DNA from: Rhodothermales bacterium
GTDB lineage: Bacteria > Bacteroidota > Rhodothermia > Rhodothermales > UBA10348
NCBI GenBank assembly: GCA_028284865.1
Contig: JANQQV010000020.1
Span: 1-64,000, forward strand
Length of the DNA: 64,000 bases
Direction of reading: 5' to 3'
How positions within the stretch are numbered: the stretch's first letter is position 1; each line of letters starts with the position of its first letter. Shown one piece after another: positions 1 to 12,007 of the stretch. The notes under the pieces are model-generated. The model was not told the DNA's origin and did not search any database. It saw nothing but the letters and a program-made list of their open reading frames with translations. Both the position numbers and the translations under genes were made by a program.

Positions 1-159
1 GAGTGAGATCTCCTCAGAGCCAAAGAAATCCACGAGATCAGATCGATAGGCACGCCGCGTGGCTGGACGATCAAACTTCAAGAGATACGTATCAAGCAGC
101 CTGTCCGAAAAGGACTTCGCCGGGGATCCGGAAGAGATATGTACCAGATGGTCGGACAA
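1..159 (-). CDS. Tyrosine recombinase/integrase, N-terminal fragment (runs off left edge)
   Basis: A minus-strand frame is open for 53 codons from a TTG at 159 to base 1, with an in-frame TGA about 11 codons upstream of that TTG. The peptide contains LLDTYLLKFDRPATRRAYRSD followed closely by LVDFFGS. This is the pattern of the SAM-like core-binding N-terminal domain of XerC/XerD-type recombinases, where a helix with S/P-x-T-x-x-x-Y is followed by D-L-x-x-F. The catalytic domain (R-H-x-x-R, Tyr) lies outside the window, so whether this is a housekeeping Xer protein or a mobile-element integrase cannot be decided. The start codon is uncertain. The gene is divergent from fxsA across an AT-rich region at about 200-235. 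Confidence 0.6.
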   Translation of the reverse strand, partial: MSDHLVHISSGSPAKSFSDRLLDTYLLKFDRPATRRAYRSDLVDFFGSEEISL

Positions 160-330
160 GGGTGCACTCAGAGGTCAAGGGATCGAAACTCACTCGTATT
201 TATAAAGTATGATAATAATAGTTATCGTACAACAAGGAGCTTGTGAAACGGATTTAACACGTGAATACCGTCATTCGTGAAGCAATCTGACTGAATTGCC
301 GTACGACAGTCCTCATCATTCACAGACGCT
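160..330. promoter_or_regulatory. Divergent intergenic region with AT-rich promoter-like stretch
   Basis: This separates the minus-strand recombinase from plus-strand fxsA. Bases 199-232 are strongly AT-rich. Read on the minus strand they offer a TTG at about 230 and TACTTTAT about 20 bases further on, resembling the Bacteroidota -33/-7 pattern (TTG, then TAnnTTTG). No RNA gene or terminator was recognised. Confidence 0.3.
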
Positions 331-888
331 ATGCCCTGGTTACTCATTCTGTTTGTCGTTGTCCCGGCACTTGAGCTGTACGTGCTGATCCAGATCGGTA
401 CGGTCATCGGTGCAATGAACACATTCCTGCTCATCCTTGGGACCGGAATCCTCGGTTCTTGGCTGGCCAAGAATCAAGGCCTTGCCACGTGGCGCGCATT
501 GAATCAGCGGTTCAGTCAGGGCCAGATTCCAGGAAAAGAATTGATGGACGGTGCCATCATTCTCGTGTGCGCTGCATTGCTGCTTACGCCGGGCGTTATC
601 ACGGACGTCATTGGATTGGCCGGATTGATTCCGGTCACCCGTGCCGGATTCAGAAATGTCCTGTCGGCCTTGTTCACGGCGAATCCAGCTTTTCGCGTCA
701 GCTTTGGCGCTGGTTCGGTGTACAATGCGTATCGTGGAAGCACGAGCCAACAAAGTGGCCCTGATCCGTCCGGCACTCCACATGCGGGAACGGAATCGCC
801 GCAGGAGGCCTCACTTGAAGACGAGCCGATCGTCTCAGGCTCGGCAAAATCGCGTCCTGCGCATATGGAGCCGACTTCAGGCGTCTGA
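331..888 (+). CDS. fxsA: FxsA family membrane protein
   Basis: This 185-residue protein has the FxsA core: an N-terminal membrane segment starting MPWLLILFVVVPALELYVLI, then IGxxxG-type hydrophobic helices and the LLLTPGVITDVIGL segment at roughly residues 80-100, as in Escherichia coli FxsA and Bacillus YtzA homologues. FxsA is a small cytoplasmic-membrane protein whose overproduction relieves exclusion of phage T7 by the F plasmid; its cellular role is otherwise unclear. The last 50 residues are polar and variable, as usual in the family. The stop lies two bases before the ATG of the DinB-like gene, so the two are probably co-transcribed. Confidence 0.9.
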   Translation: MPWLLILFVVVPALELYVLIQIGTVIGAMNTFLLILGTGILGSWLAKNQGLATWRALNQRFSQGQIPGKELMDGAIILVCAALLLTPGVITDVIGLAGLIPVTRAGFRNVLSALFTANPAFRVSFGAGSVYNAYRGSTSQQSGPDPSGTPHAGTESPQEASLEDEPIVSGSAKSRPAHMEPTSGV

Positions 889-890
889 AT

Positions 891-1409
891 ATGCCCAAAA
901 AACCGTCACCTGAGTCTCCAGCGACCAAGACGCCTGCGGAGAATTTGCTTGCGATTCAGGCGCATCTAGATACACTGGAAACGTACCTGGGCGACTATGA
1001 TCTCCAGGAAAGCGCGGTTTCAGAATGGTCTGTCGGACAGCACATCGAGCATATCCTTGCAGCGACATCCCTGTTGACCGTTCTGTTGCTCAGGAACCGC
1101 ACCCTTGAAGACGAAGGCGACCAGCGTTCCATCAAGCCAACGCTGTTGAATCGCGGTCGTATTCCACGCGGAATAGCTCAGGCGCCCGAGGCCACCGTTC
1201 CAGGTGACAGTCCCGCGCTAGACGATCTCGAGAAGCAATTACGAGCATGTCGTAAAAGGGTCGCCAGATTACCCAATGCCGAATCGGAATCCGTGGTTAC
1301 TCACCCGTACCTCGGCGACATGAATCGTGATGAAGCTCTAGCCTTTATGGTCATTCACCTCGATCATCACTTGAAGATCATGGCCGACATTATGAAGGAC
1401 GCGAAATAG
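891..1409 (+). CDS. DinB-like (DinB_2 type) putative metal-dependent protein
   Basis: This 172-residue protein fits the DinB/YfiT four-helix-bundle superfamily. Candidate metal ligands are the paired histidines in WSVGQHIEHIL (H51, H54) and the C-terminal IHLDHHLKI (H156, H159, H160), spaced as in that family, where three His residues bind a divalent metal. Members include bacillithiol/mycothiol-dependent transferases and many damage-induced proteins of unknown reaction, so no substrate is assigned. It follows fxsA by two bases. The first 15 residues are Pro/Ser/Lys-rich and probably disordered. Confidence 0.75.
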   Translation: MPKKPSPESPATKTPAENLLAIQAHLDTLETYLGDYDLQESAVSEWSVGQHIEHILAATSLLTVLLLRNRTLEDEGDQRSIKPTLLNRGRIPRGIAQAPEATVPGDSPALDDLEKQLRACRKRVARLPNAESESVVTHPYLGDMNRDEALAFMVIHLDHHLKIMADIMKDAK

Positions 1410-1425
1410 TCGCTGCTTACTTCAT

Positions 1426-2223
1426 TCAGTACGCGATGCGTACGTCGATATGCCATGCGGCAGAAAGACTTTCGGCGATCTCGCGCTCTTCGTCTGTGAC
1501 GTCGCCGTCGGACTTTGCAATCGTGATCAAATCATCCAGGACGATGAGTCGTTGCGAGCGACGTAGCGCATCTTTGATGGCTCCAATGGAGTCCTGGATA
1601 TCGGATGCGTCCGGTCCCTGTGCGTAATACTGGATCGCGGTTCGAAGGATGCTGCGGAGATCTTCCTCGTTCAGATCGGGCTCCCACTCCCCCAGTCGAT
1701 TGATCATTGTTCGGATTTCTACGTCCGTCAAGTCGCCATCGGATGCGTGTCCCATGATTAGGTACATCAGTGCGATATCATGCATGACACTCCATTCGGG
1801 GTCATTTTCGAGGCGTGCGCTGGTTTCATCGATCAGACGGTCTTTGGTAGCCTTGATATCCCAGGCGGTCGCTAGGATGGACAACAGATTCTGCTCTGAG
1901 TTGAGCAGGACACCGTCCGCCTCGGCAATGCGCATGACATCTTCGAGTACCTCTCGACGCTGTTCGATTTTGAGCGCTTCTCCGAGAGCGCGCACCGAAT
2001 GCACGAACTCCTTCTCCGCGTCGGACTCGAAGAACACCGAAGCAGCTTCCAGCACGATTTCGTGAACGTCGTGATCGGTCAGATTCGGTCGCCACTTCCG
2101 GATAGAGGCCGAAATGGCGTCTACTTCCTCGTTTGCGAGATCCGCGTCTGTCGAGTAAGCCAAGGTCAAAAAGACCAGGGCTATATCATGGAGATGGGTC
2201 CAGGATTCTTCGTGCGTGTGCAT
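1426..2223 (-). CDS. Tandem TerB-like domain protein
   Basis: The 265-residue acidic protein consists of two similar halves. Residues about 10-125 and 140-262 each begin with a HDIAL-x(2)-L segment, continue with a DxDL-x(2)-E-x(4)-I loop, and end with an A-x-x-DG-V-x-x-x-E loop followed by AW-I. The negatively charged DG loops resemble those of TerB-like domains, found in tellurite-resistance proteins and many envelope-stress proteins. Function is unknown. The gene is convergent with the DinB-like gene (16-base gap) and lies upstream, on the same strand, of nothing obvious. The duplication is visible in the sequence; the TerB assignment is from memory of the fold signature. Confidence 0.65.
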   Translation of the reverse strand: MHTHEESWTHLHDIALVFLTLAYSTDADLANEEVDAISASIRKWRPNLTDHDVHEIVLEAASVFFESDAEKEFVHSVRALGEALKIEQRREVLEDVMRIAEADGVLLNSEQNLLSILATAWDIKATKDRLIDETSARLENDPEWSVMHDIALMYLIMGHASDGDLTDVEIRTMINRLGEWEPDLNEEDLRSILRTAIQYYAQGPDASDIQDSIGAIKDALRRSQRLIVLDDLITIAKSDGDVTDEEREIAESLSAAWHIDVRIAY

Positions 2224-2375
2224 GCGTCGTTGTCGGATGATCAGATGAAGATGCTACGGTGCATCTGCAACGGAAGATACACTGAAAACCGCCCGTTGGG
2301 ATGAAGAAACGCAGGTATCCTTCCCGCGGACACCACGAGACAAGTACTTCGTTTCGCCCAACGAATATGAAAGTG

Positions 2376-2972
2376 TCAAACCTTGGAAAAGACCTCCGTC
2401 AGCTCCTTTTCTACTTCCAGCCAACCTTCTTCGGCGTACCAGTCGACAGTCGTTGACGAGACGATTCGACCCTCAGCGCCAGAATCCATCAATTCCTGCC
2501 GAATGTCCCGAATGGCATCGGGCTGTGGTCCCCAAACGAAATCCACTGTCCCATCGGGCTGGATGTGTGCGAGTTTGGGTATCGAACGCTTGCCGTTTGT
2601 CAAGAACTGCTCCATCACCTCAGGGTGGTCATCCTTAAGAAGGATGCGTAGAGTGATGTTTTCATGCCTATCACTTGCCCATTTCACCATCGGAAGGCTG
2701 TATGCTGAGTCGACACACCAATCGTCTGTGATGAAGAGCCAGTCAGCAGGGCCTGTCAGGGCTTTCACGGCCGCCTGGAAGGCTTGAGATGGAGACCACA
2801 GCTCTTCCACCCTCTCCTGGCGCTCCAGATTGTACTTGGAATAGAACCGGGTACGCCGAGCAACGGGATCCAGCCCTTTCATGGGAAGAGCGTTCTTGGC
2901 CCGCCATTGGTCCATGTAGTTCTCGAAAGTCAGTCCGGCTCGGATCTCAGAGAGCAGTTCTTTGGATAGCAT
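2376..2972 (-). CDS. Thioredoxin-family protein with single-cysteine active site
   Basis: The 198-residue protein has a thioredoxin-like segment centred on ITDDWCVDSAYSLPMV (about residues 101-116), then LRILLKDDHPEVMEQFLTNG and the cis-proline loop RSIPKL. In this cytosolic subfamily, common in Bacteroidota and Firmicutes, the motif is W-C-x-D-S/A rather than C-x-x-C. The missing second cysteine is therefore probably a family trait, and the protein is unlikely to be a classical dithiol oxidoreductase. It is divergent from the sugar symporter gene; the two share the 240-base region that holds the LacI-type palindrome. Confidence 0.8.
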   Translation of the reverse strand: MLSKELLSEIRAGLTFENYMDQWRAKNALPMKGLDPVARRTRFYSKYNLERQERVEELWSPSQAFQAAVKALTGPADWLFITDDWCVDSAYSLPMVKWASDRHENITLRILLKDDHPEVMEQFLTNGKRSIPKLAHIQPDGTVDFVWGPQPDAIRDIRQELMDSGAEGRIVSSTTVDWYAEEGWLEVEKELTEVFSKV

Positions 2973-3146
2973 CGATTTCCTTGATTGTGATGCGCCTGCG
3001 TTGAGTTGGAGTTCGTCAGTGTTACTAGCTGCACCTCAAGGCTATTGGTCTGCAGGGGTTGGACCGCCTTCTTCGACGGAAACTACATGCGTCAGACGGA
3101 CAAAATGGGGCTTTCTGCTTGTCCAAAGGTCCAAGAATCTATATAC

Positions 3147-3164
3147 TCTGAAAACGTTTTCAGA
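3147..3164. promoter_or_regulatory. LacI/GalR-type operator, 18-bp perfect palindrome
   Basis: TCTGAAAACGTTTTCAGA is a perfect inverted repeat centred on the CG step, the hallmark of LacI/GalR family operators (an A-rich half site, central CG, T-rich half site). It lies 46 bases before the ATG at 3211 and next to an AT-rich stretch (TATATACT, 3140-3147) that could be the -7 region. A repressor bound here would block the symporter-phosphorylase operon. No LacI-family gene occurs in the window, so the regulator must be elsewhere. Confidence 0.75.
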
Positions 3165-3210
3165 ATGTGGTGATGCGACGGCTTTCACGACTCTTCGTGT
3201 GCCCTCAATC

Positions 3211-4680
3211 ATGCCTGAATACCCCAATCACTCCACTTTCCAAGCCATGAGTGCTGCACAATCGACCTCCAAAAAAGTCCCCTTCGGATTGAAGCTGGCT
3301 TGGGGTTTCGGAATGCTGGCCAATCAGATGTTTCCTGCAGCATTGGGGGTATTTCTGGTCGTCCTCGTCCAGAATCTGGGCTTCTCCCCCCTCCTCTGGG
3401 GAGTCATTTTCTTCGCACCGCGGCTTTTTGATGCCATCACGGATCCCATCATGGGATTCATCTCCGACAACACGAGATCCAAATGGGGGCGACGTCGCCA
3501 ATACATCTTCATTGGTGCGATCATCCTCGGCTTGTCTTACATGGCCATGTGGCAGCTGTACGCTGAGAACGGTGTCACATTCAATTTTGTCTACTTCATG
3601 GGCTTCTCGCTCGTGTTCTATCTCGGCCTGACCATATTCAGCGTGCCTTTCGTGGCCATGGGATATGAGATGAGCGATGATTTCCACGAGCGTACCAACA
3701 TCATGGCAGTGGGCCAGTTTGTCGGGCAGTGGGCCTGGGTGATTGCCCCGTGGTTCTGGGTGATCCTCTACGATCCAGCATGGTTTCCAGATGCTGCTAC
3801 TGGGGTCAGAGAGCTGTCCATTTGGGTCGGAGTCGGTTGCGGGATTCTGGCAATGATCCCGGCCATTTTCATCAAGCAAAGGTCTACCGTGGACCGGGAC
3901 GATCTGGCCACTGTTTCCATGGCGACCATGGGTCAGAGTCTAAAGGAGATCGCTTCAGCGACAGCGGATGCCTTCCGGATAAAGCAGTTCAGACAGATCG
4001 CTTTTGCCACCTTCCTGATCTTCAATTCTTTCAACGTCATCGCGACGTTCACTTTCTTCATCATCCTGCACTATCTCTTTGCCGGCGATGAAGCAGCCGT
4101 GGGTATTTGGCCGGCCATGCACGGTTCGATCGGGGCGCTTGTGACCACGTTCATCGTGATCCCCATTGTGGCATGGGTGTCGAAATTCCTGGGCAAGAAG
4201 AAGACCTTCATTCTGTCTCAGGCGGTCTCGGTTGTCGGCTATATCCTGTTCTGGTTCCTGTTCGTTCCGGGTAAGCCCTACCTCTTTCTCTGGGCGCTTC
4301 CTTTCCATTCATTCGGCATCGGGGGTCTGTTCACCCTGATGATGTCGATGACGGCAGACGTCTGTGACATTGACGAATACAATACCGGGAGGCGGCGTGA
4401 AGGCACCCTGGGAGCCGTCTATTGGTGGATGACCAAGTTCGGTCAGGCATTCGCAGGATTGCTTTCAGGGGTGATCATGGCCATGGTGGGCTTCGACGCA
4501 GCCAATGTCACCATGGATGCCATGACCGGGCTCCGTTTGTTCTACACCTTCCTGCCGATTGCAGGAGTGATAGGAGCCATAGCCATCATGTGGAATTACG
4601 ATATCACTGAGGAAAAGGCCAACGAAATCCGCAAGGCATTGGCCGATCGTGCGTCAGTCGCTACGTCTTCCGCTTCCTGA
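3211..4680 (+). CDS. GPH-family (MFS) sugar:cation symporter
   Basis: About 490 residues with some twelve hydrophobic segments. The N-terminal GLKLAWGFGMLANQMF segment and the D-A-x-x-DPIMGFISDNTRSKWGRRR loop (about residues 70-95) are typical of glycoside-pentoside-hexuronide:cation symporters such as MelB and SemiSWEET-unrelated SLC45-like carriers. These proteins import oligosaccharides or glycosides with Na+ or H+. The open frame extends further upstream to 2962, but that part overlaps the thioredoxin gene and the operator. The ATG at 3211 is preferred, with 3247 as an equally plausible start. The phosphorylase gene follows after 29 bases, which suggests the transporter delivers its substrate. 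Confidence 0.85.
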   Translation: MPEYPNHSTFQAMSAAQSTSKKVPFGLKLAWGFGMLANQMFPAALGVFLVVLVQNLGFSPLLWGVIFFAPRLFDAITDPIMGFISDNTRSKWGRRRQYIFIGAIILGLSYMAMWQLYAENGVTFNFVYFMGFSLVFYLGLTIFSVPFVAMGYEMSDDFHERTNIMAVGQFVGQWAWVIAPWFWVILYDPAWFPDAATGVRELSIWVGVGCGILAMIPAIFIKQRSTVDRDDLATVSMATMGQSLKEIASATADAFRIKQFRQIAFATFLIFNSFNVIATFTFFIILHYLFAGDEAAVGIWPAMHGSIGALVTTFIVIPIVAWVSKFLGKKKTFILSQAVSVVGYILFWFLFVPGKPYLFLWALPFHSFGIGGLFTLMMSMTADVCDIDEYNTGRRREGTLGAVYWWMTKFGQAFAGLLSGVIMAMVGFDAANVTMDAMTGLRLFYTFLPIAGVIGAIAIMWNYDITEEKANEIRKALADRASVATSSAS

Positions 4681-4709
4681 GTTCACCCGTTCACTTTCTG
4701 CCCTCGTAA

Positions 4710-7700
4710 ATGGGGCAAACAAGCACCGTTATGTCAGGCACCTCGATTCACGTTGATACACCTGCCAAGCATCACGCGACCCGAAATGGCGTCGCAGGCT
4801 CCTATGTAGAGCTGGACGGGGAATCGTATTACGAAATCCGCAACAGCCACCTGATGGCTGAGTTCTTCATGTCCATCGTGGGGGCAGACGACCATTGGAT
4901 GTTCATTTCCAGCCGAGGTGCGCTTTCAGCGGGAAGGCGGAATCCAGACGGAGCCATATTCCCATACGCTCCGGATGACCAGATTTCTGCCATGCAGCGC
5001 AGTACCGGCCCCACGACCGTCATCTCCGTCCCGGACACAGGAGTCGTGTGGCAGCCCTTCTCGATCGGAACGGGCGACAAAGCTGGATACGAGCAGTCCG
5101 TGTTCAAGTCACCCATGGGAAGCAAGGTCGTCTTCGAAGAGCGCAACGATGATCTTGGGCTGACATTCAGATACCGATGGACGTTCAGCCCCCGGTTCGG
5201 CTTTGTCAGGGATTGTGTGTTGACTAACACCGGGCGATCCGATCGCACCATCGATGTGTTGGACGGGATTCAGAACCTGCTCCCATGTGGTGTCGGACAG
5301 GATTTCTGGCATCGTTTCAGCAACCTCGGCAATGCGTACAAGAAGAGTGAGCTCCTGGAATCCAGTCGCCTCGGCATTTTCTATTTGAGCTCCGTTCCTA
5401 CGGACCGAGCAGAGCCCTCGGAAGGTCTGCGCTCCACCATCGTGTGGCACGATGGGTTTGATCCCGATGCGCTGCTCCTCTCCCCCTCTCAGGTGCCGGC
5501 CGCCATCCGGGGTGAACAGATTGTCACAGAGCACGCACGACGTGGCCAAGTAGCGGCCTATCTTGTTTCCAAACGACTGGATCTGGCACCAGGGAGCAGC
5601 ATCCGTTGGAGACAAGTGGCGGACCTGGACAAGGATCAGGCCGACGTCATCAATCACTCCGCCTGGCTCGCTTCGGGTGCCGATACCTGGGACATGGTCG
5701 ACAAGGATATTGCGGAGGGCGAAACCCACCTCAAACGCCTCATCGCCTCGTCAGACGGCTTACAGTGCGGCTCGAACCTGAATCGAACGAATCGGCACTT
5801 CTCCAATACGCTGTTCAATGTCATGCGCGGAGGCGTTCCGCTTCAAAACTACGAGGTAGATACAAGCGACTTCCGAAAGCATGTGGACGTGTTCAATCGG
5901 GATGTAGCTATTCGCCATTCCGAATTACTGTCGACGCTGCCTGATCAGATTGATCATGCTGTTTTGAATGAGCGTCTCGCTGAAACCAAGGATCCGGATC
6001 TCATCCGTCTTGGACTCGAGTATTTGCCTCTTGCCTTCAGTCGGCGACATGGAGATCCGACTCGACCGTGGAATCGGTTCTCCATTGATCTGAAGAGTGA
6101 GGACGGAAGTAGCAACCTGAACTATCAGGGCAACTGGCGCGATATCTTCCAGAACTGGGAAGCGCTGGGGATGGCTTTCCCGGATTTCTACCCGGCTATG
6201 ATATGCCGCTTCGTCAATGCGACGACTGCTGACGGTTACAACGCTTATCGGATCACCAAGGATGGTCTGGAGTGGGAAGCGCCCGAGCCGGAAGACCCGT
6301 GGTCAAACATCGGGTACTGGAGTGATCATCAGATCATATACCTGCTGAAGCTTCTGGAATGGAATCGTCGCTTCCACCCTGGATCATCCCGGGAATTGCT
6401 TTCCGAGAGGGTATTCGTCCATGCTGAGGTGCCCTACCGGATCAAGGACTTTGATGCCATCAAGGCCAATCCGCAAGAGACCATCGATTATGATTGGTCG
6501 CTGTCTGAAGAGATTGAAAGCCGCGTCGAGAAGACGGGCTCTGACGGAAAGCTGTTGCGCGATCAATCGGGAAGCATCCATCGCGTGACGCTTCTCGAAA
6601 AGCTTCTGACGCTCTCCATCGCAAAGCTGTCCAATTTTGTCCCAGATGGAGGCGTCTGGCTGAATACACAGCGTCCCGAGTGGAATGATGCCAACAATGC
6701 CTTGGTTGGAAACGGGCTTTCCATGGTCACGACCGGCTATCTCCATCGTTGGTTCGACTTTCTGGTTGATTGGATCGAAGAGGAGCAGAACGGCTCTTAT
6801 CCCATCTCATCCGAAGTCAAGAATGCCCTCGTAGCGATCCACAAGGTCATTCTGGAGAATCGCCCGCACATTCAACACGGATTCGATTCTACCTCGCGCG
6901 CTCGCATGGTTGAGGCGCTCTCGCGAGTGGGGTCAGACTACAGAGACACGCTGTACAACGAGACTCCTTCGGGAAATACGGAAGAACTGGATCGTGGCGA
7001 CCTGCTCTCATTTCTATCGGAATCACGCAGCCTGATGGCTGCGAGCATCCGCGCCAATCGACGCGAGGATGGGCTCTACCACTCGTACAATCTGCTGAGG
7101 TGGACACGTACTGGCCTCGAAGTAGATGTCTTGTACGAGATGCTCGAAGGCCAGGTCGCCATGCTTAGCAGTGGCTTACTGTCCAGTCAGGAGGCTATTG
7201 ATCTGCTGGAAGCTCTGAGACAGAGTGCGCTCTTCCGGGCAGATCAGAACAGCTACATCCTCTATCCGAATCGGGACCTGCCAGAGTTCCTCGAAAAGAA
7301 CCAGCTGACTGCCGCTCAAATCGCTGAGTATCCGTTGCTGAGTGCCCTTGTAGATGCGGGAGACACCCGAATCGTGAAAAGGGATGTCGAGGGCGGTTAC
7401 CACTTCAATGGAGACTTCAGAAATGCCTCTGAACTAAGGCAAGCACTTGCTCAGCTGGATCAGCAGTATGCAGGGTTGGTCAGTGAAGATCGAGAGCGAG
7501 TGTGTCAGTTGTTCGAGGAAGTGTTTGATCATCGAACGTTTACCGGGCGCTCGGGTACGTTTTTCGCTTACGAAGGTCTCGGGTCCATCTATTGGCACAT
7601 GGTATCCAAGCTCGGACTGGCGGTAGCTGAGTATGTCGAGAAGTCCCAGGCCAATGCTTATCCGGATCACCACAAGGAGGCGCTTCGTGCTCACCTTGAA

Positions 7701-8186
7701 TCGATACGGGATGGAATCGGAGCTGAAAAATCACCGGAGCATTATGGCGCCTTTCCGTCCGATCCGTACTCTCACACGCCAGAGAATGCTGGTGTTAAAC
7801 AGCCCGGAATGACCGGCCAGGTCAAAGAAGATGTCCTGGCTCGATACATGGAACTGGGCGTTGAGATCGAGGAGGGCATGCTCGGATTCTCCCTTTGCGG
7901 ATTCGACCCGAGCGAATGTGTGAGAGTAGAAACGGAGTTCGAGTACTTCAACCTCGAAGGCCATTCAGCATCTGTTTCCGTTCCCGCTGGCGGATTCGCG
8001 TTCACGGTATGCCAGGTGCCTGTCGTCTACCGACCCGGAGATCGCCGCGAGATCCGAGTCCACGAGTTGAGCGGCGTGGTAGATGTCATTGAAGGATCCC
8101 GTCTTTGCGGCGACGTCAGTCGTGAGGTGTTCGGTCGGTCGGGACGGGTGGCAGCGATTGAATGCGTCTGGCCGGAGTTGGCTTGA
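4710..8186 (+). CDS. Large GH94/GH161-like glycoside phosphorylase
   Basis: This 1158-residue protein resembles inverting glycoside phosphorylases of clan GH-Q. The N-terminal third looks like the beta-supersandwich domain (PDDQISAMQRSTGPTT at about residues 88-103, close to the family's substrate-loop region). The rest is the (alpha/alpha)6 barrel with GNWRDIFQNWEAL (about 473-485), FVNATTADGYNAYRIT, WSNIGYWSDHQIIYLLKL and PEWNDANNALVGNG (from residue 656). GH94 enzymes carry D-W-N-D at the last site, with the first Asp as general acid; here it reads E657-W-N-D660. The length fits GH161 (beta-1,3-oligoglucan phosphorylases, about 1100 residues) better than GH94 (about 800). Such enzymes split an oligosaccharide with phosphate to a sugar-1-phosphate in the cytosol. 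No signal peptide is seen. Substrate is not determined. Confidence 0.7.
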   Translation: MGQTSTVMSGTSIHVDTPAKHHATRNGVAGSYVELDGESYYEIRNSHLMAEFFMSIVGADDHWMFISSRGALSAGRRNPDGAIFPYAPDDQISAMQRSTGPTTVISVPDTGVVWQPFSIGTGDKAGYEQSVFKSPMGSKVVFEERNDDLGLTFRYRWTFSPRFGFVRDCVLTNTGRSDRTIDVLDGIQNLLPCGVGQDFWHRFSNLGNAYKKSELLESSRLGIFYLSSVPTDRAEPSEGLRSTIVWHDGFDPDALLLSPSQVPAAIRGEQIVTEHARRGQVAAYLVSKRLDLAPGSSIRWRQVADLDKDQADVINHSAWLASGADTWDMVDKDIAEGETHLKRLIASSDGLQCGSNLNRTNRHFSNTLFNVMRGGVPLQNYEVDTSDFRKHVDVFNRDVAIRHSELLSTLPDQIDHAVLNERLAETKDPDLIRLGLEYLPLAFSRRHGDPTRPWNRFSIDLKSEDGSSNLNYQGNWRDIFQNWEALGMAFPDFYPAMICRFVNATTADGYNAYRITKDGLEWEAPEPEDPWSNIGYWSDHQIIYLLKLLEWNRRFHPGSSRELLSERVFVHAEVPYRIKDFDAIKANPQETIDYDWSLSEEIESRVEKTGSDGKLLRDQSGSIHRVTLLEKLLTLSIAKLSNFVPDGGVWLNTQRPEWNDANNALVGNGLSMVTTGYLHRWFDFLVDWIEEEQNGSYPISSEVKNALVAIHKVILENRPHIQHGFDSTSRARMVEALSRVGSDYRDTLYNETPSGNTEELDRGDLLSFLSESRSLMAASIRANRREDGLYHSYNLLRWTRTGLEVDVLYEMLEGQVAMLSSGLLSSQEAIDLLEALRQSALFRADQNSYILYPNRDLPEFLEKNQLTAAQIAEYPLLSALVDAGDTRIVKRDVEGGYHFNGDFRNASELRQALAQLDQQYAGLVSEDRERVCQLFEEVFDHRTFTGRSGTFFAYEGLGSIYWHMVSKLGLAVAEYVEKSQANAYPDHHKEALRAHLESIRDGIGAEKSPEHYGAFPSDPYSHTPENAGVKQPGMTGQVKEDVLARYMELGVEIEEGMLGFSLCGFDPSECVRVETEFEYFNLEGHSASVSVPAGGFAFTVCQVPVVYRPGDRREIRVHELSGVVDVIEGSRLCGDVSREVFGRSGRVAAIECVWPELA

Positions 8187-8231
8187 CACTCCCTCGCTGC
8201 ACGACCGTCGGTAGCTTCATGTTTGGCCCGT

Positions 8232-10040
8232 TCAGTTAAGGAACGACTCGAGCGATCGTCCCGCCTGAATGTACTTCGAGTGGACGTCCAGGTAGGTGTC
8301 CCTGACCAGAACATCGACTTCGGCCGGTGACATGAATCTGTCCGAGAATCCGGGATGATCTCGGTCGATAACCAGCCTGGATGCTCCGAGAAAGTGACCG
8401 ATCAACTCTTTGGGGTTCTCGTCACCAACGGCGATACGGATATTTGTTGGAGCAATTCCTGATTCCGCCAGGGCTTCGCGATCCAATTCAGAGTGGGAAG
8501 TGAATGCGGGACACAGGATGGTGGTATTGCACTGGCCCAGGCTCACCATGTGATTGAATACAGGTGACAGGCTGTCGAAGAAGCTTATGAACGTCTCTCG
8601 CTCCAGTCCTGAATCCTCAAAGTCAATCGTGAATAGCGGCGCAGGGAGTCCGAAGCGAAGTCCGCGCTCGCGCTGGTCATGATTCCAATGGCCTTCGAGT
8701 GCATTGCAGTGCACGTTAATTCCCGAATGAGATGCGAGGAAACGAGCCAGCACCAAGGTGTTGATGCACTTCTTCAGCATGCGCATCTCGAGAGTCTTGA
8801 TCCCCGATATCACCTCAAAGGCTTTGTCCGCATCCAGGAACGCGCCCTTGATGTAGTAGGCATCCCAGAACAGCGTGTCCTGCCAGGATCGACCTGCCAT
8901 CTCCTCTCCTTTCGGGATGAACATGCGCTCATTCCGCGCGATGACCACGCCTGCCGTGGCGTTTCCATTCCCCGTCAGATCCTTCGTATACGAGTGAATG
9001 AGATAGTCAGGTCGTTCATCCGGGTTTGCACGCTGAAGGGGCTTATCGAGAAACGGAGTAGCCACGGTTGAGTCGTGAATTACGGTCCATCCGCGCTTAT
9101 GTGATTCGGCTGACATACCCGGGATGTCAAGAACGAAGCCGTGCGGGTTGCAAGGCGACTCAACGTAAAAGAAGACGTTGGCACCCGCAGCGATCTGATC
9201 AGCGTACTGTTCGGAGATCTCTTCAGCTCGCGAAACGAAGGACTCCCGGTCATAGCCATCGAACCACTCAATGTGGGCTCCAAGTCGCCGTTCGTCACCA
9301 TAGAAATCATGGAGAAGCTGCCAGGTACCGCCGTATACGTTTCGAGAAACCAGGACAATGTCTCCCCGACCAAGTACGTGTCCCAGCAGGGTGTCGATGG
9401 CAGCCATCCCTGAATTGAAGTTCCAGGCCAGATACTCGGAGGCGTGCGGTCCTGCCTCCAGGTCGACGATGTGATTGGCCAACGAGATTGAAGTGGGGTT
9501 GAGCAATCTCGAGTAGATCTCGTGCAGCGCCTCTTTCCCGTGGAAAGCGTCATCCACCCATTCTGTACATGCATAGATGTACGTGGCCGTTCTTACGATT
9601 ACGGGATTGGCCGAGAATAGAGCGGTCACATTGTCGAAAATCGGATACGGTCCCTTGGCCTGCAGGGAGTCGTCGGACATGTCCAGCTCCTGGTAGCTCT
9701 TCCGGAATGGGTTCTGAAGCGTGTCCAGAATCTTGGCGACCTGAAAAGACAGAAACTTCTTCGCATTGAACCATGCAATCCGATCGGTACGGTCAAGGCC
9801 CTCGATCGTATCTGCGGTGACCTTCCAAAGCCTGTCCATGTCAGCCTGCGCCTCGTAAAGGGCCGAACATGCGTTCAAAAGTGCGTGGCCATACTCCGAT
9901 TCGGGCTCAACACTGAAGTGCTGCAGCTGCTCGCGGGCCAGAGCCTCCACGGTCGAAGCAGTTGTCGATTTGCGGCGTGGCGACAGGACTCGGGCTGCCT
10001 CCATGCGTTGAGTGTTTTCGGACGTCGTCGAGATTTCCAT
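8232..10040 (-). CDS. Cys/Met-metabolism-type PLP-dependent enzyme
   Basis: This 602-residue protein has a fold-type I PLP core at about residues 170-560: WNFNSGMAAIDTLL near 205, VFFYVESPCNPHG near 285, VIHDSTVATPF near 320, and the Schiff-base lysine K353 in HSYTKDLTGNGNAT. The core resembles cystathionine gamma-synthase/methionine gamma-lyase family members, but at about 390 residues those enzymes are much shorter. Here a 150-200-residue N-terminal extension of unknown role precedes the core. The gene is divergent from an Lrp/AsnC regulator, a common arrangement for amino-acid catabolic enzymes, so an amino-acid substrate under Lrp-type control is inferred. The precise reaction is not assigned. 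Confidence 0.8.
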   Translation of the reverse strand: MEISTTSENTQRMEAARVLSPRRKSTTASTVEALAREQLQHFSVEPESEYGHALLNACSALYEAQADMDRLWKVTADTIEGLDRTDRIAWFNAKKFLSFQVAKILDTLQNPFRKSYQELDMSDDSLQAKGPYPIFDNVTALFSANPVIVRTATYIYACTEWVDDAFHGKEALHEIYSRLLNPTSISLANHIVDLEAGPHASEYLAWNFNSGMAAIDTLLGHVLGRGDIVLVSRNVYGGTWQLLHDFYGDERRLGAHIEWFDGYDRESFVSRAEEISEQYADQIAAGANVFFYVESPCNPHGFVLDIPGMSAESHKRGWTVIHDSTVATPFLDKPLQRANPDERPDYLIHSYTKDLTGNGNATAGVVIARNERMFIPKGEEMAGRSWQDTLFWDAYYIKGAFLDADKAFEVISGIKTLEMRMLKKCINTLVLARFLASHSGINVHCNALEGHWNHDQRERGLRFGLPAPLFTIDFEDSGLERETFISFFDSLSPVFNHMVSLGQCNTTILCPAFTSHSELDREALAESGIAPTNIRIAVGDENPKELIGHFLGASRLVIDRDHPGFSDRFMSPAEVDVLVRDTYLDVHSKYIQAGRSLESFLN

Positions 10041-10081
10041 GGGTTCTGGCGATCATGAATGCAGACTCATCGCTACATGAT

Positions 10082-10092
10082 GCATATTATGC
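10082..10092. promoter_or_regulatory. Dyad in the divergent PLP-enzyme/Lrp promoter region
   Basis: GCATATTATGC is a perfect odd-centred inverted repeat in the middle of the 97-base region between the PLP-enzyme start (10040) and the regulator start (10138). Its AT-rich centre and position make it a candidate Lrp/AsnC operator controlling both genes. Only one copy is present, and its half sites are short. Confidence 0.4.
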
Positions 10093-10137
10093 GGCAAAGA
10101 ATCCCTCCGGCCGAACTCTATTCAGTCCTATTCCCGA

Positions 10138-10614
10138 ATGAAACGAGTAGATCGAATCGACGAACGAATTATCGAGCTCTATCAGAAGGATGCTCGGATG
10201 ACCAATAAATCGGTCGCAGCTGAGCTTGGAATCGCTCCTTCCACAGCCTTGGAGCGAACACGGCGATTGGAGCAGATCGGTGTGTTCAAAGGATTTCATG
10301 CCGATGTAGAACCACGACACCTCGGCATCCGGCTCCTCGCCATGATATCAGTCCGGTTGAGCAAACACGATCCGCACGCTGTATTCCGGTTCACGAATCA
10401 CGTACTCGAACTCCGGGAGGTTCGAGATATCTATCACGTGGCAGGTGAGAACGACTTCCTGATCCATGTGGCGGTGAAAGACTCGGAGCATTTGCGAAGG
10501 GTTGTGCTGGAAGGAATTACGGCGCAAGTCGAGGTGGAGCATGTAGAGACGAATTTGATCTTCGATCATCATCGAGACCATGTCCTTGAATCGTGCTGGG
10601 AGACTGAACTCTGA
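10138..10614 (+). CDS. Lrp/AsnC family transcriptional regulator
   Basis: The 158-residue protein has the standard two-domain layout: an N-terminal helix-turn-helix (DERIIELYQKDARMTNKSVA, then LGIAPSTALERTRRLEQIGV, about residues 7-48) and a C-terminal RAM/AsnC ligand-binding domain. The latter includes VRDIYHVAGENDFLIHVAVKD, matching the conserved G-D-[FY]-D-[LI]-like effector-binding strand. Proteins of this family form octamers and sense amino acids. The divergent PLP enzyme is the likely target. An inverted repeat CTGATCacGATCAG overlaps the stop codon (10611-10624). Confidence 0.92.
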   Translation: MKRVDRIDERIIELYQKDARMTNKSVAAELGIAPSTALERTRRLEQIGVFKGFHADVEPRHLGIRLLAMISVRLSKHDPHAVFRFTNHVLELREVRDIYHVAGENDFLIHVAVKDSEHLRRVVLEGITAQVEVEHVETNLIFDHHRDHVLESCWETEL

Positions 10615-10666
10615 TCACGATCAGGGATAGAACCCGGACCAATCACGCCTCGTCAACACGCTGATC

Positions 10667-12007
10667 ATGCCCGGAACCGCTTCCTCCCTCCCTCTCAAAT
10701 CCGTTCTGCTCGGGACTGCAATCGCCATCACCCTGCTGGGGTGCGAGGCGGCTCCTTCCTCTGAACAACAAACTCCTCAGAACGAAGCAAGTGCGTCGCC
10801 AGTAGAGTTCGTCCAGGTTGTCGATGATGAACGAGGAATGCGCCTGACGGTGGATGGTGAGGACTTTTTCGTCATGGGCATGAATTGGGACTATTTCCCT
10901 CGCGGCACCAACTACGCATTCAGCCTGTGGTCGCAACCGGACGATGTCATCAAGGATGCGCTTGATCGCGAGATGAGCATGATGCAGGAAGCCGGCATCA
11001 ATGCCATTCGCCAATATGTCGGCGTGCCTCCGCGCTGGGTGGCTTATATCCATAAGAACTACGGCATTTACACAGTTTTGAATCACGCGCTGGGTCGTTA
11101 CGGCGTCTCGGTAGATGGCGAGTGGATCGCCAACACGGATTATGCCGATCCTGCCTCGCGGGAGGTAATCATCTCCGAAGTTGTTGCCATGGTCGAAGCC
11201 TTCAAAGACACACCGGGCGTCTTGATGTGGCTGCTGGGCAATGAGAACAACTATGGACTGGTTTGGAGCGGAGCGGAAACCGAGAATCTTCCCGAAGAGG
11301 AGCTGAACGTTCAGTTGGCAACTCCTCTGTACACCTTGTTTGGCGAAGCCGCCGATCGAATCAAAGAGATTGACACCCTACGCCCTGTTGCCATGGCCAA
11401 TGGCGACTTGGGGTACATGGATCTGCTCGTTGAGCACGCTGCGTCAATCGATGTTTTTGGTACGAACGTCTATCGAGGACTGGACTTCACGGATCTCTTT
11501 GATCGTGTACATGAGGAATTCGGGAAGCCGGTTATGCTGACTGAGTTTGGTGCGGATGCCTATGACGCCAAGCAGGGACGCGAGGATCAGGAGACGCAGG
11601 CCAAGTACTTCCATTCCCAATGGAGGGACATTTATGCGAACGCCTCAGGATTTGACGGTGCGGGCAATTCGGTTGGTGGCCTGGCCTTCCAATGGTCGGA
11701 CGGCTGGTGGAAACATGGACAGGAGACCAGGCTGGATGTGCATGATACCACCGCCTCATGGCACAATGAGGGCTATCCCGAGGACTTTGAGGAAGGGCAG
11801 GACAACATGAATGAAGAATGGTTTGGCGTGGTCGCCAAGGGCCCCACAGATGAGCGGTGGCAGTTTGACCTGATCCCTAGAACGGCTTATCACGTGATCC
11901 AGGAAATCCACACGTTGGATCCCTACGCAGCCGGAGTGGATTCCGCATCGATGGACGCTCATTTCGACGGCATCGCTGTCAGCGGGTATCCTGACCTGGA
12001 TCAATAG
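10667..12007 (+). CDS. Clan GH-A glycoside hydrolase, exported lipoprotein
   Basis: The 446-residue protein starts with a lipoprotein signal (hydrophobic segment ending TLLGC, Cys about 25) followed by a Ser/Gln/Glu-rich linker. The rest is a TIM-barrel glycosidase of clan GH-A. The acid/base motif is LLGNENN with E193, and the candidate nucleophile is E293 in MLTEFGAD, exactly 100 residues later, as expected for GH2/GH5-like barrels. The strand FVMGMNWDYFP opens the barrel. The family (GH2-like, GH5 or GH17/72-like) is not resolved. It follows the Lrp gene by 52 bases, but a role in the nearby glucan utilisation is only suggested by context. It is convergent with parE. Confidence 0.75.
   Translation: MPGTASSLPLKSVLLGTAIAITLLGCEAAPSSEQQTPQNEASASPVEFVQVVDDERGMRLTVDGEDFFVMGMNWDYFPRGTNYAFSLWSQPDDVIKDALDREMSMMQEAGINAIRQYVGVPPRWVAYIHKNYGIYTVLNHALGRYGVSVDGEWIANTDYADPASREVIISEVVAMVEAFKDTPGVLMWLLGNENNYGLVWSGAETENLPEEELNVQLATPLYTLFGEAADRIKEIDTLRPVAMANGDLGYMDLLVEHAASIDVFGTNVYRGLDFTDLFDRVHEEFGKPVMLTEFGADAYDAKQGREDQETQAKYFHSQWRDIYANASGFDGAGNSVGGLAFQWSDGWWKHGQETRLDVHDTTASWHNEGYPEDFEEGQDNMNEEWFGVVAKGPTDERWQFDLIPRTAYHVIQEIHTLDPYAAGVDSASMDAHFDGIAVSGYPDLDQ

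Follow-up and report, generated by a model that had tools for sequence, protein, structure and literature searches.

The 1158-residue protein encoded in the 64,000-nucleotide stretch of Rhodothermales DNA analysed here (the window) is almost certainly, judging from its sequence and predicted fold, an ordinary beta-1,3-glucan phosphorylase of the known family GH149. Its apparent catalytic anomaly is removed by this assignment, as E-W-N-D is the usual GH149 signature. We further predict a regulon in which one LacI-type operator ties the symporter-GH149 gene pair to a distant locus encoding a GH16 enzyme, a CBM9-domain protein, a TonB-dependent receptor and a LacI-family regulator, and which would represent a testable laminarin-use system. 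The features of the window are collected in Table 1.

Table 1. Features of the window and the basis of their assignment
Feature	Position	Strand	Basis
LacI-type operator, perfect palindrome TCTGAAAACGTTTTCAGA	3147..3164	.	Exact 12-base core; upstream of symporter-GH149 pair
GPH/MFS_2 sugar:cation symporter, directly upstream of GH149	3211..4680	+	PF13347, E 3.1e-59
GH149 1,3-beta-D-glucan phosphorylase (predicted), 1158 aa	4710..8186	+	NF058639, PDB 6HQ6, fold match
R477-D478 codons, RD motif (sugar 1-phosphate recognition), R470-D471 in Pro_7066	6138..6143	+	81/81; PMC6771811
E657-W-N-D660 codons; D660 predicted general acid, E657 GH149 signature residue	6678..6689	+	81/81 GH149
H963 codon, aligned to phosphate-recognition His, H959 in Pro_7066	7596..7598	+	81/81; aligned with GH94 His
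Probable secreted (lipoprotein-like) TIM-barrel glycoside hydrolase	10667..12007	+	GH2_C Pfam, E 8e-10

Family assignment

The gene is a single uninterrupted open reading frame whose product carries the sequence R655-P-E657-W658-N659-D660; its coordinates and the motif E657-W-N-D660 are as described in the initial annotation. The protein scores 1501.7 bits with the NCBIfam equivalog model for GH149 1,3-beta-D-glucan phosphorylases (NF058639, GH149_beta_1_3), whose curated cut-off is 1150 bits; the match spans residues 26-1152, and no other NCBIfam family is matched. A Pfam search of the protein gave no family match, which shows only that Pfam has no GH149 model fitting it. The top match in a PDB sequence search is the GH149 enzyme Pro_7066 (6HQ6), aligned over residues 28-1151 with 1029 bits. 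It is from this family membership and from the genomic context that beta-1,3-glucan phosphorolysis is predicted as the activity.

The length of the protein exceeds that of classical GH94 enzymes by about 340-350 residues, in line with the figure of about 350 given earlier; the GH94 open frames found in our search are mostly 790-830 aa. A length of 1158 aa is nevertheless normal for GH149, as 6HQ6 has 1175 aa in the PDB and, among relatives, the open frames of full-length GH149 homologues mostly measure about 1140-1200 aa.

The resemblance to Pro_7066 (6HQ6, 6HQ8) runs from end to end in sequence and fold, and includes the RPEWNDANNALVGNG motif with its Glu, the RD and His motifs and a length of about 1150 aa. 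The surface laminarihexaose-binding site of Pro_7066 (E990, Y993, E994) is not conserved across all GH149 proteins (PMC6771811). EgP1 of Euglena gracilis, which we compared by its published description, has the family and the predicted reaction in common with our protein, but is eukaryotic and has a predicted targeting peptide (PMC5827456). Identity to the characterised Pro_7066 is only about 42-43%, leaving room for a different acceptor preference. The same low identity, and a genus clade distinct from the GH149 proteins of order relatives, would also be compatible with a GH149-like enzyme that has kept inverting phosphorolysis and drifted in specificity to another beta-glucan linkage (e.g. 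beta-1,4, beta-1,2 or mixed-linkage). We consider such a drift very unlikely, since the score exceeds the cut-off of the 1,3-beta-D-glucan phosphorylase equivalog by a wide margin, the operator of the gene pair also marks a GH16/TonB-receptor/LacI locus, and EgP1, although only 45% identical to Pro_7066, has an unchanged linkage specificity (PMC5827456).

The general acid of the catalytic motif

In the structure of Pro_7066, the general acid is D653 of the sequence W651-N652-D653 (PMC6771811). In the cellobiose phosphorylase of C. gilvus (CgCBP, GH94), Asp490 is catalytic and Trp488 binds the sugar (PMC5501786). As the catalytic residue lies two positions past the Trp, the general acid is the last Asp of W-N-D. 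When the protein was aligned with fetched GH94 sequences, P-E-W-N-D stood opposite (A/G)-D-W-N-D, so that E657 falls on the first, non-catalytic Asp. GH161 proteins read P-G-W-Y-D, with Gly at the position of E657. That this position is occupied by Gly in GH161, Asp in GH94 and Glu in GH149, while the last Asp is constant, indicates that it is not catalytic in the clan.

Conservation within the family points the same way. E657, W658, N659 and D660 are each found in all of the aligned GH149 proteins (81/81), as are R477-D478 and H963. RPEWND is present in 17 of 17 further loci fetched from relatives, two of which cover one gene, and the Glu also occurs in the solved and active Pro_7066 (6HQ6). 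On these alignments, E657 is a normal GH149 family signature and not the general acid; the general-acid Asp is predicted to be D660, and the catalytic apparatus appears intact.

The initial annotation had proposed that Glu stands in place of the general-acid Asp, perhaps with a different mechanism. What speaks for a mechanistically altered phosphorylase is the Glu preceding W-N-D where GH94 has Asp. With D660 intact and invariant, with Glu at 657 being the norm throughout a known glycoside hydrolase family that includes an active enzyme of solved structure, and with GH161 having Gly there, we see no sign of an altered mechanism; the proposal is refuted by family-wide conservation and by the general acid lying elsewhere in the motif, and its probability is negligible. 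Assignment to such a family is also what the initial annotation itself had named as a refutation.

Predicted fold and related families

A single-sequence prediction (mean pLDDT 34) was set aside, and the fold was assessed on an alignment-based AlphaFold prediction (model m69afa209957d). The alignment contained 17 sequences, all of which (17/17) match the GH149 NCBIfam model alone. The resulting model has a mean pLDDT of 83.6 and a pTM of 0.84. In the comparison with GH94 and GH161 enzymes that had been suggested as a check, it superposes best on the GH149 structure 6HQ6 (1114 residues, 2.5 Å, Z 51; TM 0.93-0.95), followed by GH161 (Z 35), the GH94 laminaribiose phosphorylase (Z 29) and cellobiose phosphorylases (about Z 24). 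Laid on 6HQ6, the model has the GH149 architecture of a beta-sandwich, a linker, an (alpha/alpha)6 barrel and a jelly roll in about 1150 aa. The catalytic loop, residues 656-665, has pLDDT below 50, and we make no claim on the geometry of D660 and E657.

The GH94 laminaribiose and cellobiose phosphorylases (6GH3, 2CQS) share the clan fold and a general-acid Asp ending WND. Membership of GH94 was rejected on scores and fold. The protein has EWND rather than (A/G)DWND and does not match Pfam Glyco_hydro_94 (PF17167), a family absent from the whole genome. GH94 enzymes are, moreover, mostly about 800-900 aa long and lack the two additional domains reported for GH149 (PMC6771811). The GH161 beta-1,3-glucan phosphorylases (PapP, 9GY9, 9QQK), which act on substrates of DP 3 or longer (PMC6484121), have the clan GH-Q fold and the catalytic Asp in common with the protein. 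Placement in or near GH161, or in an uncharacterised clan GH-Q group, as first suggested, gains something from this fold and from a detectable sequence similarity (E about 2e-12), but with 48 bits for the GH161 entries, next in the PDB search, against 1029 for GH149, a far weaker fold match, 15-19% identity and PGWYD instead of RPEWND, we reject it as having practically no likelihood. The assignment to clan GH-Q phosphorylases stands; within the clan, the protein belongs to GH149, an established family of solved structure.

Symporter, operator and predicted regulon

The sugar symporter and the LacI-type site that had been linked to the gene are both borne out (Table 1). The symporter probably starts at ATG 3211 or 3247, the mechanical open reading frame beginning at 2962. 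Four genus-mates preserve the synteny of the symporter-GH149 pair, with the symporter upstream, and of 80 named GH149 loci 52 have a homologous symporter. LacI regulators, transporters and further glycoside hydrolase genes have already been reported from GH149 neighbourhoods (PMC5827456).

In the same four genus-mates, sites within one or two mismatches of the 14-base operator core lie upstream of the symporter. Allowing one mismatch, the operator 14-mer is found at six places in the whole genome, against none for a reversed control. Three of the six, at C23:400.2 and 403.3 kb, are located in a cluster of GH16, CBM9-domain, TonB-dependent receptor and LacI genes, where the gene for the LacI-family regulator, at C23:402.2-403.2 kb, is directly downstream of one site. 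That the operator is common to the symporter-GH149 pair and to this distant cluster supports a LacI-controlled beta-1,3-glucan regulon, and the C23 cluster is probably part of a laminarin regulon together with the pair. The genomic context as a whole fits laminarin use. The C23 cluster itself lies at about 395-403 kb (G000:C23; L113:3035-11225). Two further one-mismatch sites, C23:101978 and C23:199704, are probably due to chance, being located within a gene for a protein kinase or next to genes without a link to sugars.

Proposed reaction and pathway

We propose that the protein is a cytoplasmic inverting phosphorylase that would use inorganic phosphate to split fragments of laminarin (beta-1,3-gluco-oligosaccharides) into alpha-glucose 1-phosphate and a chain shorter by one glucose. 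D660 would protonate the glycosidic oxygen while phosphate attacks the anomeric carbon, with the donor sugar and phosphate held by R477/D478 and H963; E657 would be a catalytic-loop residue specific to GH149 and not the acid. Laminarin would be cleaved outside the cell by GH16, its fragments taken up across the outer membrane, brought in most likely through the adjacent GPH symporter and degraded by GH149 in the direction of phosphorolysis. Both loci may be controlled by a LacI-family repressor, the candidate being expected to bind the shared operator.

It is conceivable, if rather unlikely, that the genus-specific GH149 clade, with its operon of GPH symporter and LacI control, has shifted away from Pro_7066 in the acceptors that it prefers (in their chain length or in how far branches are tolerated), perhaps as an adaptation to one laminarin in particular, and that E657 influences the pKa of D660 throughout GH149.

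Neighbouring genes and distribution

A search for plasmids with positions 1-12000 of the window found nothing. On the opposite strand, positions 8232-10040 encode 602 aa resembling, by eye, a PLP-dependent enzyme of the cystathionine-synthase type; the gene is kept beside GH149 in genus-mates (L095, L097) at 83-88% identity. The TIM-barrel protein further downstream matches GH158 weakly in the PDB (E 1.7e-5) and has homologues, at 46-54% identity, in 24 of the 80 named GH149 loci. It is possibly a partner enzyme and a candidate beta-glucanase.

GH149 is common in this group: our search covered 60 genomes, that of the window and those of its relatives, and found the family in 27 of them. In one genus-mate (G002, L097:6297-9730) the gene is split into two frames, with matches at 6333-7223 and 7229-9709, either by a frameshift or by an assembly error. 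The closest named homologues come from planctomycete MAGs (55-56% identity). The GH149 proteins of order relatives have a greater similarity to other branches of the family, which hints, as far as sequence comparison goes, at horizontal transfer or ancient divergence. A contig labelled Rubripirellula (L003) has a GH149 gene, a symporter and a ParE/GyrB-like gene with 55%, 73% and 56% identity to those of the window, which points either to genes shared with planctomycetes or to an error in binning. GH149 has been described mainly from bacteria and euglenids; one contig with the label Candidatus Brockarchaeota archaeon (L032) carries a full-length homologue of 47% identity.
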